In this document: positions 19,514-24,303 of the stretch, piece by piece
How the letters are laid out: each line of letters opens with the position of its first letter
Numbering within the stretch: position 1 is the first letter of the stretch
Origin: Acidimicrobiia bacterium
Lineage (GTDB): Bacteria > Actinomycetota > Acidimicrobiia > Spongiisociales > Spongiisociaceae
Direction of reading: 5' to 3'
Length of the DNA stretch: 48,836 nucleotides
Assembly (NCBI GenBank): GCA_009841105.1
Contig: VXMM01000047.1
Coordinates: 1-48,836, forward strand
The notes under the pieces: generated by a model
Databases searched by the model: none
Told to the model about the DNA's origin: nothing
Seen by the model: the letters and a program-made list of their open reading frames with translations, nothing else
Program-made: the position numbers and the translations under genes

Positions 19514-19579
19514 TCATATCTTCTTCTTCGATGCGGTCAGCCGGGCGCCGGTGTCCTGTTCGGTAGTTCGTTATCCGCA

Positions 19580-19743
19580 CGCCAGGCTCGAGAACGCGAA
19601 AAACGCCCCGACACGCCGCACCCCGGCGGGCCCATCCCCCAGCCACCACCTCCTTCGGTCCGAACGCGACCCGCTATCCCCTAACGGGGTCTGCTCCCGA
19701 CTTGATCCCAGATCCGGGCTCCTCGACGTCGATAGGCAAGAGT
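19580..19743 (-). repeat. Dispersed structured intergenic repeat, copy 3 (diverged)
   Basis: Read on the minus strand it has TTGCCTATCG (19731-19740), then AAGGAGGTGGTGGCTGGGGG, GGGCCC, a hairpin and GTTTTTCGCG in the same order as copies 1 and 2. The hairpin stem is CGCCG/CGGCG (19614-19618 with 19624-19628). The middle part is shorter and more diverged than in the other two copies. Orientation is opposite to theirs. Confidence 0.5.
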
Positions 19744-19883
19744 CCGGTGGTGCTTGTGACCGCTGGTCAGTATGCGACGGGGCTGTGACACTTTCAACCC
19801 CCTTGTCCAGCGGCCGGTCCGCGCCCCAAGGCGGTGGTCACCGAACGCGGCGAACCTAAGACCGGGGACGCCAGGAGTGCGCC

Positions 19884-19955
19884 GAATATGTCCAGTTGGC
19901 CGCTAGCCGGCAACGAACCCCCAGGGTCGAGTCATTGCACGTCAAGCCCATGCCC
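19884..19955 (-). repeat. Dispersed 3'-end hairpin repeat, copy B
   Basis: Related to 5584-5660. On the minus strand it begins a few bases after the stop of the fusion gene at 19962 and folds as TTG-CCG-loop GCTAG-CGG-C-CAA, with the same bulged C as copy A and a stem shorter by one pair. The tail CTGGACATATTC is matched to copy A but the T-run is interrupted, so it would be a weaker terminator. Confidence 0.65.
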
Positions 19956-19961
19956 GTCTCG

Positions 19962-21770
19962 TCAGTATTCTCCGATTCCCAGCGTCTCCTCGGCCCGTTC
20001 GAGCCGCTGGCCTCCCAGGAGAACGGGAGCGAACAGATCTCCGTAGCGGGAGATCCGGTCCCAGATGGTGGCGATGGTGAAGCTCGCAGGATCGATAGTG
20101 TCCAGTTCGTCCCATCGGAGCGGCGTGGACACCGGTGCTCCGGGGCGGGGCCGTACCGAGTAGGCCGCCGCGATGGTGGCGCCGCCTCGGTTCTGCCCGG
20201 AGTCGATATACACCTTCCCCGCACGGTTGGGGATGTGGCGATCCATAGTCACGTTCTCCGGGTTGGCGGCGGCCAGCAGATGGCCGAGCCGCTGCACGAA
20301 CGTCCGGACCCGGGCGTAGTCGTGGACCGGGTCGAGTGGCACGTAGATATGAATGCCTTTCGATCCGGAGGTCTTCGGATAGCCACGCAGCCGCAGGTGG
20401 CCGAGGGCTTCCCGGAGGAGACCGGCCACAGCCACCACCTGATCCCAGCTTGAGCCTGCCGCAGGATCGAGATCGAACACCGCGAAGTCCGCGGCATCGA
20501 GGGACCGGACCCGTGAGAGCCAGGGGTGGATCTCGATACAACCCATGTTGGCCAGCCACATGAGGGACTCGGGCCGGTCGGCGGTTACGTACTCGATCAC
20601 CCCGCCTCGATGGGCCGAGTCGATCGGGACCAGCGGCATCCAGGCCGGCTGGTGGCCGGGGGCCTGCTTCTCGTAGAAGGAGGCGGCTTCGACGCCGTCG
20701 GGGAACCGGGCCATCACGATCGCCCGATCCTCCAGATGGGGGAGCAGGAGCGGAGCGACGGAGGCGTAGTAGGAGATCAGGTCGCCCTTGGTGTAGCCGT
20801 CGGGAAAGAACCGCTTGTCGAGGTTGGATAGCCGCAGGGGGTGGTGGTAGCCGACCAGGGAGTATCCGTGTTTGGTCTCCGCGGCCCTGGGCGCGGTCGG
20901 GAATGAGACAGCGCCGCTGCCGGCGGACCGCCCCAGCGGTACGGGCTGGGTCACGGAGGCCAGCGCGCTCTTGATCTCCGTCCGGATCCTGCGATGAGAC
21001 GGCTCGTCGCGGGACTCGGAGATGACGGTTACCCGGAAGCCGGCCCGGTGTGCCGCTTCGACCAGCGGTGTGACCCGGAGGTCGCCCTGACCGTACGGGA
21101 GGTGGCGGATCTCGCCGTTCTCGTCGTACAGGACATCGCTGAACTGGGAATGGAGCGGATCGACTTTCCATCCCGCGAAGTTCTCCCGCAGGAACCCGAG
21201 CACCGCTTCGAACGCCTCGACCGACCGGAGACCTCCCCCGCTTATGGCATGGACGTGTGCCCAGTCGATGACGGGCCGCACGAACGGATACTCCGCGCAG
21301 AGGAGAGCGATGTCGCCGAGGCTCCCCATCTGCGAAGCACGTCCGGTGGTCTCGAGGCCCAGACCGACTCCGAGGTCGGACACCTTGGTCGCCAGGTGAT
21401 CGAGGTGGCGGCGGATGGTGTCCATCAGGAAGCCTGGCTCCTCCTTGCGCCGCCCGCCCGGATGCGCCACCACCATCCGGGCGCCCATCCCGGCAGCGAG
21501 ATTCATCGCGTGCTCGATCGCCCCCCGGCACTTCCGGGCCCGATCCTCGTCGGTAACGGTGAGGACCGCGAAGTAGGGGGCATGGATGGAGAGCGGGATT
21601 CCTCGTCGTGCCGCCTCCTTCCCGAAGGAGCTGCAGCGCCGCTCGTTCCACGGGAAGGACCTGGTGAATGCCAGCTCGAAGGCCTGGCAGCCCTGCTCCA
21701 ACAGCCCGTCCAGGAACTCTTCATCAGAATTGTCGGGCGAAGGGAGCCCCGAGTATCCGAACGTGATCAC
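19962..21770 (-). CDS. Endonuclease IV-like barrel fused to LigD polymerase domain
   Basis: A 602-residue two-domain protein. Residues 1-265 form an AP-endonuclease-2/endonuclease-IV-like TIM barrel with likely metal ligands His63 ('SIHAPYFA'), His103 ('VAHPGG'), Glu140 ('GLETTGR'), Asp169 and His172 or 174 ('VIDWAHVHAI'), His207 ('LHSQFSDV'), His223 ('IRHLPYG') and Glu252. After a short Ala/Pro linker, residues about 300-600 are an archaeo-eukaryotic-primase-type LigD polymerase domain: 'RFFPDGYTKGDLISYYASV', catalytic Asp433/Asp435 ('VFDLDP'), 'TSGSKGIHIYVPL' with His474, and Asp523 ('YIDSGQN'). One continuous frame from a GTG start. The parts suggest abasic-site cutting plus gap filling in one polypeptide. 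No Ku or ATP ligase is nearby; the activity is inferred from motifs. Confidence 0.85.
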   Translation of the reverse strand: MITFGYSGLPSPDNSDEEFLDGLLEQGCQAFELAFTRSFPWNERRCSSFGKEAARRGIPLSIHAPYFAVLTVTDEDRARKCRGAIEHAMNLAAGMGARMVVAHPGGRRKEEPGFLMDTIRRHLDHLATKVSDLGVGLGLETTGRASQMGSLGDIALLCAEYPFVRPVIDWAHVHAISGGGLRSVEAFEAVLGFLRENFAGWKVDPLHSQFSDVLYDENGEIRHLPYGQGDLRVTPLVEAAHRAGFRVTVISESRDEPSHRRIRTEIKSALASVTQPVPLGRSAGSGAVSFPTAPRAAETKHGYSLVGYHHPLRLSNLDKRFFPDGYTKGDLISYYASVAPLLLPHLEDRAIVMARFPDGVEAASFYEKQAPGHQPAWMPLVPIDSAHRGGVIEYVTADRPESLMWLANMGCIEIHPWLSRVRSLDAADFAVFDLDPAAGSSWDQVVAVAGLLREALGHLRLRGYPKTSGSKGIHIYVPLDPVHDYARVRTFVQRLGHLLAAANPENVTMDRHIPNRAGKVYIDSGQNRGGATIAAAYSVRPRPGAPVSTPLRWDELDTIDPASFTIATIWDRISRYGDLFAPVLLGGQRLERAEETLGIGEY

Positions 21771-21846
21771 CCGGCCAGCCTATCGGTCCCGGGCGCGGCG
21801 GAGGGGAGGCTCATGGAAGGCCCTAGTGAGAGCTACCCTCCCGGTT

Positions 21847-21919
21847 GGGCCTGTAGCTCAGTAGGCAGAGCAGCGGACTTTTAATCCGAAGGTCGCGGGT
21901 TCGATTCCCGCCGGGCCCA
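21847..21919 (+). tRNA. tRNA-Lys (UUU)
   Basis: The 73-base gene folds as a standard cloverleaf: acceptor GGGCCTG/CGGGCCC with one G-U pair, D arm GCTC/GAGC, anticodon loop CTTTTAA (anticodon TTT, lysine), T arm GCGGG-TTCGATT-CCCGC and discriminator A. No CCA is encoded. The top pair of the anticodon stem (G27/A43) is mismatched, where other actinobacterial tRNA-Lys usually have G-C. The broken LRR/protease gene begins directly after it. Confidence 0.95.
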
Positions 21920-21922
21920 CCC

Positions 21923-24303
21923 GGTGCCGCCGGAGCGGAGTCTCCCTGCAGTTCCGAGGAGGTGCTTCCCGCTGGTCAGGAGGCTTGGCGATCGGACTGC
22001 GAAGCGCTCTGGGAGTTCTATACCAGCCTGGACGATGTCGGCGTTCTGGACGATGCGAACAATCCGCATCCTTGGGGTGCCGGTACACCGTTCGTGGACT
22101 GGCAGGGCTTATCGACGGTTGCTCGTGGGGTAGTCGGGATTGATCTGTCCCGGACGGGTTTGTCGGGTACTATGTCGCTGGCACTGGGCCATTTAAGCAA
22201 CCTGGAAATCCTGAACCTCCACTCGAACTCATTGTCCGGCGAGATTCCCGAAGAGCTGGGCCGGCTGTCGAAGCTGACCTTCCTGGACCTTGGGGGCAAT
22301 GGCTTCAACGGGACACTTCCTGTGCAGTTGGGTAGCGTCTCTGCGCTGAGGGTTCTGGTTATCCACAGCTCGGACATCACCGGGCCTATCCCTGCGAGCT
22401 TCGGAAACCTCAAGAAGTCGACCCATCTTCACCTTGCATCAAATAAGCTTAAAGGTGAGACACCGTCGGAGCTAGGTGAGTTAGCAGAGCTGGAGACTCT
22501 CGATCTGCGAAACAACTAACTCAGCGGCCGTATTCCTCCATCTCTTGCTAACCTGAGGAACCTCACTCAACTTCGCCTTGAAGGTAATAGGTTCATCGGT
22601 AGTATGCCAGCGCGTCTGCGTATGCAGCTCGCTAGAGCCGCATCTGAGGCCCGTGAACAGCCAACCGGCGATGACAATGCCGAGATCTATTCGGCCGATC
22701 CTCTCGGTCTAATCGCCCATGCCGATGTCTTTCGTGAGTATTCTGTCGGCCCCGAATTGTGGGAAGTCTGGACCTGCGATATACCCATCGGTGATGTGAT
22801 TCTCACATCTAACAAGATAGTGGTATCACTGAATAAGGAGATAACTGGCTATTTCAATGGCTATCCAATGGCCGCTATCATCCCACTTTTGAGTACATCG
22901 GTAACGTACAGGCAGAGGATCGACCCGGCTGTGAAGAAGCAGCCAAGGCGACACCCTCGAGCAACCGGTTACTGGTAATCGACGATACCGCCTACACCGG
23001 TGGATACTATTCAGGGCGCGCCATAGTAGTGGGTGGGGGATCTGTCGCCACAGCGCCGGGGTGGCCCGAGCCAGTCCTCGCTACGGTGTCGCATGAAATA
23101 GGGCACGCGCTGGGTTTCCCGCATTCGTTCGGCGGGAATAAACGCTGGGCAAACGGCAACATCTATGAAGGTGACAACCCGATGGACCTGGTCAGCGGCC
23201 AGGTTCGTCTTGATCTCAATACGGCCACCATTGCCGTTAACCGTTACGCAGCCGGGTGGATCGATCCCGATAACGTGGTAGTCCACGAGCCCGCAACAAC
23301 AGAGGTTTACGAACTACGACCACCGGGACTCGGTGGCCTGCAGATGCTGGTCGTGCCTGGCACGACACAGGGCGTGTTCTACACGCTCGGAGCGCGTATC
23401 GGAGTCGGCTGGGACCTCGCTATCCCGAAACAAGGTGTTGAGGTGTACCGAGTCGACCAGCGGCCATCAGCGTGCAATCACCCATCACGTGGTGCCTGCT
23501 GGTGTCTCGAGAGGCGTACTCAACCGTACCCACCTGCTGAGCAGGGCGCCGGGCATGGGGACGACCTGTACGGTCGGAGGAAAGCCCGACTCACCCAGCA
23601 CGTGCACAGTGTCGGCGACAGCTTCGAGGTCGGACGGGTCACCGTGGAAATAGTCGAACGGATCGGCAACTACTACAGGGTGCGGATCGTTTACCCTTCG
23701 ACGCCAGACCCGACGGCCGCGTCCGGGAATGCGTTCGCGGGGCGGTTCTCGGACGACGACGGCAGCGTGCACGGAGCGAACATCGAGGTCATCGCTGAGT
23801 TGGGTATCACACGGGGATGCGGTGACCCCGAGGACAACACGTTCTGTCCTAAGCGGCTCGTGGCCCGCTCCCACATAGTGACGTTCCTGGCCAGAGCGCT
23901 CGGCGAGGAAGAAGGTGCGGGGGCCACCACCAGCCGGTTCTCCGACGTGCCTGACGACGCCTGGTACCTGGCGAGCCTCGAACGGCTGGCCGATCTAGGG
24001 GTGGTCGAACCCTTCGAGGACGGAACCTTCCGACCCCGCAAGCCGATCACCCGGATGGACATGGCAGTCTTCATGACCCGAGCCTTCCCCCACATCGACA
24101 AGGTAGAAGACCCGGTCGGGGTCTTCGCCGACGTCGCGGCCGGCAGCGCTCACGCCGGGGAAGTAGAAGGAATCTACGCCGCAGGCGTAACTACCGGCTG
24201 CCAGCGAGACCCTCTCCGGTACTGCCCCGATCAACCGGTACGCCGCGACCAGATGGCCTCTTTCCTCGTCCGGGCCCTCAGACCACAAGACAGAGGATCC
24301 TGA
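21923..24303 (+). pseudogene. Broken LRR-metzincin protease-SLH surface protein gene
   Basis: One ancestral secreted protein is read in three pieces. Part 1 (to 22516) is leucine-rich repeats of the 'L..L.L..N.LSG.IP..L' type. A TAA (22517-22519) replaces the expected Gln codon, and the same frame continues with 'LSGRIPPSLANLRNL'. Near 22858 a one-base loss shifts the frame; restoring a T gives '...YFNWLSNGRYHPTFEYIG'. Part 3 (from that point to 24303) has the metzincin zinc site 'HEIGHALGFPHSF' with a Met-turn 'NPMDLVSG', then three SLH-like repeats ('FCPKRLVARSHIVTFLARAL', 'FRPRKPITRMDMAVFMTRAF', 'YCPDQPVRRDQMASFLVRAL'). No start codon with a signal peptide exists: the frame is open back into the tRNA. 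Much of the middle is A+T-rich (22 G/C of 60 at 22801-22860). Confidence 0.8.

Follow-up and report, generated by a model that had tools for sequence, protein, structure and literature searches.

Among described systems, bacterial LigD (domain order PE-Lig-Pol or Pol-PE-Lig, PE being the phosphoesterase) has a homologous polymerase domain of the same branch as the protein analysed here, shares its link to Ku, and likewise joins an end-processing metalloenzyme to a polymerase, the metalloenzyme being an endonuclease-IV-like barrel in our case. However, our protein has neither ligase nor PE domain, its presumed ligase is separately encoded, and its gene is not beside Ku in the genome studied. 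In mycobacterial base-excision repair reconstituted in vitro, Prim-PolC/LigC had their best end-processing partner in endonuclease IV (PMC5663958); this is the same pair of activities as we predict for the fusion, again with ribonucleotide gap repair. In that system, though, the activities reside in separate proteins, and the fused polymerase differs from Prim-PolC, for which this genome has another gene. In B. subtilis spores the effects of LigD and Nfo (endonuclease IV) are not additive, and the LigD of this species also acts as a dRP lyase (PMC4770248). Finally, the bacterial and archaeal family X polymerase with a PHP domain (PMC6616362) carries a polymerase and an AP-endonuclease/3′-phosphatase metal domain in one chain, but is an analogue, as both its polymerase fold and its nuclease domain are unrelated to those of the fusion.

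The window, a stretch of 48,836 nucleotides, forms contig C61 in a genome of 3.05 Mb that is 97.5% complete and whose closely related named genomes are metagenome assemblies assigned to Acidimicrobiia. An earlier note on its sequence had proposed that one unbroken frame joins an endonuclease-IV-like barrel to a LigD-type polymerase domain, and this is borne out by the gene summarized in Table 1. In the 602-aa protein, Pfam places AP_endonuc_2 at residues 25-267 (E 4.4e-26) and LigD_Prim-Pol at residues 327-580 (E 4.5e-89), with no match to ligase (PF01068) or phosphoesterase (PF13298) domains.

Table 1. The fusion gene and its parts, in window coordinates
Feature	Coordinates	Strand	Remarks
Fusion gene	19962..21770	-	602 aa; start GTG at 21770, stop 19962-19964; full-length relatives known
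Endonuclease-IV-like TIM barrel, residues 1-275	20946..21770	-	AP_endonuc_2, model, structural match, ligand columns
Variable linker, residues 276-308	20847..20945	-	alignment columns poorly conserved
LigD-type primase-polymerase domain, residues 309-599	19974..20846	-	TIGR02778, PDB relatives, invariant residues, tree grouping

Across the order, the majority of genomes have the full-length fusion, with identities of 51-90%, and in a sample of 247 genomes of the class full-length matches are confined to this order. The same fusion occurs in two families of another class (f52 and f55), at about 43-46% identity. A search with the barrel profile further revealed the two domains in reversed, Pol-barrel order within one 600-aa protein in lineage f48, and stand-alone barrels in f56. 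Within Actinomycetota, the taxonomic search for AP_endonuc_2 with the LigD polymerase domain that the earlier note had suggested places the pair in the order, in f52 and f55 and, with the domains swapped, in f48. Because the fusion recurs at full length across the order and in another class, it is not a misassembly; the assembly error or absence from close relatives that had been contemplated gives way to conservation at full length in dozens of genomes, and this recurrence likewise rules out a frameshift artefact or chance. The architecture is real, conserved and apparently undescribed. The open-access literature searched yielded no account of such a fusion, although it may have been listed earlier among the 20 extra domains of Ku/LigD proteins in PMC7719229. 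The polymerase tree is compatible with a single fusion event as well as with several (AU p 0.41), and so neither establishes nor rejects one origin for all fusions. Some individual genes deviate. A seeming split of the fusion gene in G051 is due to a run of N (a scaffold gap) inside the gene. A 1006-aa frame in G148 could have held a third domain, but its N-terminal part has no Pfam match and was taken to be a spurious extension. In a member of the same genus as the window's genome (G002:C81:68077-69844) the fusion lies in two frames, matching query residues 2-221 and 237-599, and among the reversed fusions of f48 (L145, L146 and L147), that of L147 is split over two overlapping frames. A mobile-element origin was rejected, as there was no full-length match among plasmids or phages and none in viral contigs, and the fusion had no PADLOC match that would indicate a role in a defence system.

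The barrel carries the complete nine-ligand set of endonuclease IV. In alignments with E. coli Nfo and the genome's own Nfo as references, H63, H103, E140, D169 and H172 correspond to Nfo H69, H109, E145, D179 and H182, and H207, E220, H223 and E252 to Nfo H216, D229, H231 and E261 (so that Nfo Asp229 is Glu220 here); the residue numbers of the Nfo metal ligands we take to be established knowledge. In two of these alignments the column of E. coli E261 is shifted, whereas the genome's own Nfo aligns there, and in another E220 is gapped and I221 is placed opposite Nfo D229. The ligands first named from the sequence (H63, H103, E140, D169, H207, H223 and E252) are thus all present, with H172 and E220 completing the set, and the metal site is not lacking, as it might have been. 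Tyr66 aligns with Nfo Tyr72, within an HxxY motif. Eight ligands are invariant in 39/39 fusions, the exception being H207, which is Gln in 7/39. This substitution, together with changes at F67, H87 and H259 in one genome (G018), could be taken to mean that the barrel has lost catalysis and serves to recruit the polymerase, by binding DNA or by docking. However, eight of the metal-ligand positions do not vary across three class-rank lineages, and we regard a silent barrel as very improbable. The stand-alone barrels of f56 (L148, L149 and L150) also have all nine ligand positions, with Leu replacing Tyr66, and are found near ccmF-like and phosphomannomutase-like genes.

An AlphaFold2 model is confident in most of the barrel, with pLDDT of about 90 there, and weaker in the polymerase. 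In a VIA-align comparison of the barrel model, T. maritima endonuclease IV (2x7v) ranks first (Z 26.0, rmsd 2.7, 265 residues), followed by E. coli Nfo (24.9), MJ1311 (24.6) and the sugar isomerase Art22 (24.1). As these values lie close together, endonuclease IV is the best match to the modelled fold by a small margin, with sugar epimerases about 2 Z units lower; the earlier concern that a sugar isomerase might match better is answered in favour of endonuclease IV, to the extent of that margin (26.0 vs about 24). Despite the shared TIM barrel, identity to Nfo is about 19%, and the Nfo signatures DTCHA, HLNDSK and DRHxxLGEG are altered, the barrel having DWAHVHA, LHSQFSD and EIRHLPYGQG. The nfo profiles are the best match for the barrel in 17/17 members tested, but TIGR00587 (nfo) scores 28.5 bits, far below its cut-off of 129.65, and a separate full-length Nfo-like gene is encoded elsewhere in the genome. 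Because of this low score and the separate gene, the barrel is not an Nfo equivalog, and the altered signatures, again with the separate gene, indicate that it is, as judged from sequence, a sister family of Nfo outside the Nfo equivalog family.

A barrel of this kind need not act on DNA at all, and could instead be a sugar or small-molecule isomerase or a phosphodiesterase fused to a polymerase. The AP_endonuc_2 superfamily is broad, MJ1311 is the PDB protein whose sequence matches the barrel best, epimerases reach Z of about 24, and weak CbiR matches occur in 10/17 members. On the other hand, the additional ligands that typify endonuclease IV (H63, H103, H172, E220 and H223) are invariant, Tyr66 occupies the Nfo Tyr72 position, and the recurrence of the same polymerase partner in both domain orders points to a DNA substrate. 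A substrate other than DNA is, in our estimation, improbable.

The polymerase domain scores 247.7 bits with TIGR02778 (ligD_pol; cut-off 214.7) and 298.8 bits with PF21686 (cut-off 27.4). Its PDB relatives are 5dmu, 5op0 and 2iru, and the nearest solved structures are the NHEJ polymerase 5dmu, Prim-PolC and the M. tuberculosis LigD domain. The residues expected of such a polymerase are present, namely catalytic D433, D435 and D523, the K466/S468/H474 motif and K319/K328. D433, D435, D523, K466 and S468 are invariant in 39/39 fusions, and H474 is replaced, by Gln, solely in the fusions of the other class. The claim of intact catalytic and nucleotide-binding motifs accordingly stands, except that the catalytic Asp residues are two plus one and not two pairs. 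In trees, the fused polymerase falls among the phylum's LigD polymerases, and Prim-PolC forms a separate clade. The second polymerase of the genome (L085) is Prim-PolC, with 311 bits to 6sa0 and its C-terminal extension aligned, and a LigC-like ligase lies about 4 kb from it. By phylogenetic grouping, then, the fused polymerase is a member of the LigD (NHEJ) branch and is not orthologous to Prim-PolC.

The distribution of Ku parallels that of the fusion. Within the order, Ku is present in 33/35 near-complete genomes with the fusion vs 2/8 without it (n=43), an association with Fisher p 1e-4, or p 0.0014 at genus level, not corrected for the full phylogeny. The two near-complete Ku-containing genomes without the fusion (one of them G035, by domain scan) have a full PE-Lig-Pol LigD beside Ku. 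Ku is also present in 10/10 fusion genomes tested from other classes. The window's genome encodes Ku (G000:C60), the LigC-like ligase (C47) and a larger ATP-dependent ligase (C57), and has no match to the LigD phosphoesterase domain (PF13298). The fusion is on a different contig from Ku and is absent from the Ku region of this genome (L084). In 25 genomes of the order (Ku loci L087, L088 and others), Ku has a single-domain ATP-dependent ligase no more than about 10 kb away, like a dismembered LigD. The PE domain is mostly missing from the order, and the barrel may, in most of it, replace the classical LigD phosphoesterase in cleaning 3′ ends. PE and the fusion occur together in 6 genomes of the order, and also in 8/10 tested fusion genomes of other classes, so that simple replacement is not general; the latter set in particular weakens a strict version of it.

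One genus (g8, comprising G018 and G025) keeps the fusion, and neither Ku nor an ATP-dependent ligase was found in it; in G018, eight of the nine ligand positions are unchanged. These genomes could suggest a base-excision module independent of Ku, in which the barrel nicks abasic sites in intact duplex, the polymerase fills the one-nucleotide gap and LigC or LigA seals. The cooperation of mycobacterial Prim-PolC with endonuclease IV in reconstituted base-excision repair (PMC5663958) and the dRP lyase activity of B. subtilis LigD would also be in keeping with such a module. However, Prim-PolC, LigC and Nfo are already available for that job in the window's own genome, the fused polymerase belongs among the LigD polymerases, and the occurrence of the fusion follows that of Ku, so that we consider a Ku-independent role unlikely. 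The original proposal that the protein works with or without Ku is thereby retained in its Ku-linked half, with use in the absence of Ku suggested by this one genus alone.

Because the fused polymerase falls on the LigD branch and its gene strongly tracks Ku, our main reading, to which we assign a probability of roughly 0.6, is that the fusion is an enzyme of Ku-linked (NHEJ) repair that processes DNA ends and abasic sites and fills gaps, working with a separate ligase. We infer the catalytic steps and their order as follows. The barrel at the N terminus, predicted to have a trinuclear metal site of the endonuclease IV type, would incise 5′ of abasic sites and strip 3′ blocks (3′-phosphate, 3′-phosphoglycolate or unsaturated aldehyde) to leave a 3′-OH. 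The C-terminal polymerase would then hold the 5′-phosphate across a short gap and add one or a few nucleotides, probably ribonucleotides, after which a separate ATP-dependent ligase would seal the nick. As an enzyme that, by its fold and metal site, would cut DNA ends and abasic sites is joined to the gap-filling polymerase, one chain could perform both the cleaning of a broken end and the gap filling that follows. A more specific version, in which abasic and 3′-blocked ends are cut or cleaned at an endonuclease-IV-type site and the gap passes to the enzyme's own ribonucleotide-inserting NHEJ polymerase, in a single chain that evolved with its domains in more than one order and replaces the LigD phosphoesterase in most of the order, is tentative, and we would put it at somewhat below even odds. 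Ku-linked repair of this kind would physically tie base-excision end-cleaning to an NHEJ polymerase, a partnership that the literature consulted describes between separate proteins, and would mean that a bacterial order performs such repair mostly without classical LigD. At about 600 residues, the fusion is suited to direct expression and assay, and its two natural domain orders make the coupling testable.

In the window, no repair gene adjoins the fusion, and neither Ku nor a ligase is its neighbour in this genome. A divergent tRNA-Lys gene (21846-21922, + strand) lies upstream and is retained in most relatives, while genes named from sequence as a MerR-type regulator, menF and menD follow downstream on the same strand and are retained in much of the family. 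About 430 bp 3′ of the fusion (19545-19970), before the next gene, do not align with close relatives, in which the same two genes are about 40-50 bp apart; this corresponds to an insertion in the window, without inverted or direct repeats. Beside the tRNA gene, frames at 21962-24303 resemble proteins of two kinds, one with leucine-rich repeats and the other metalloprotease-like with a repeat region.
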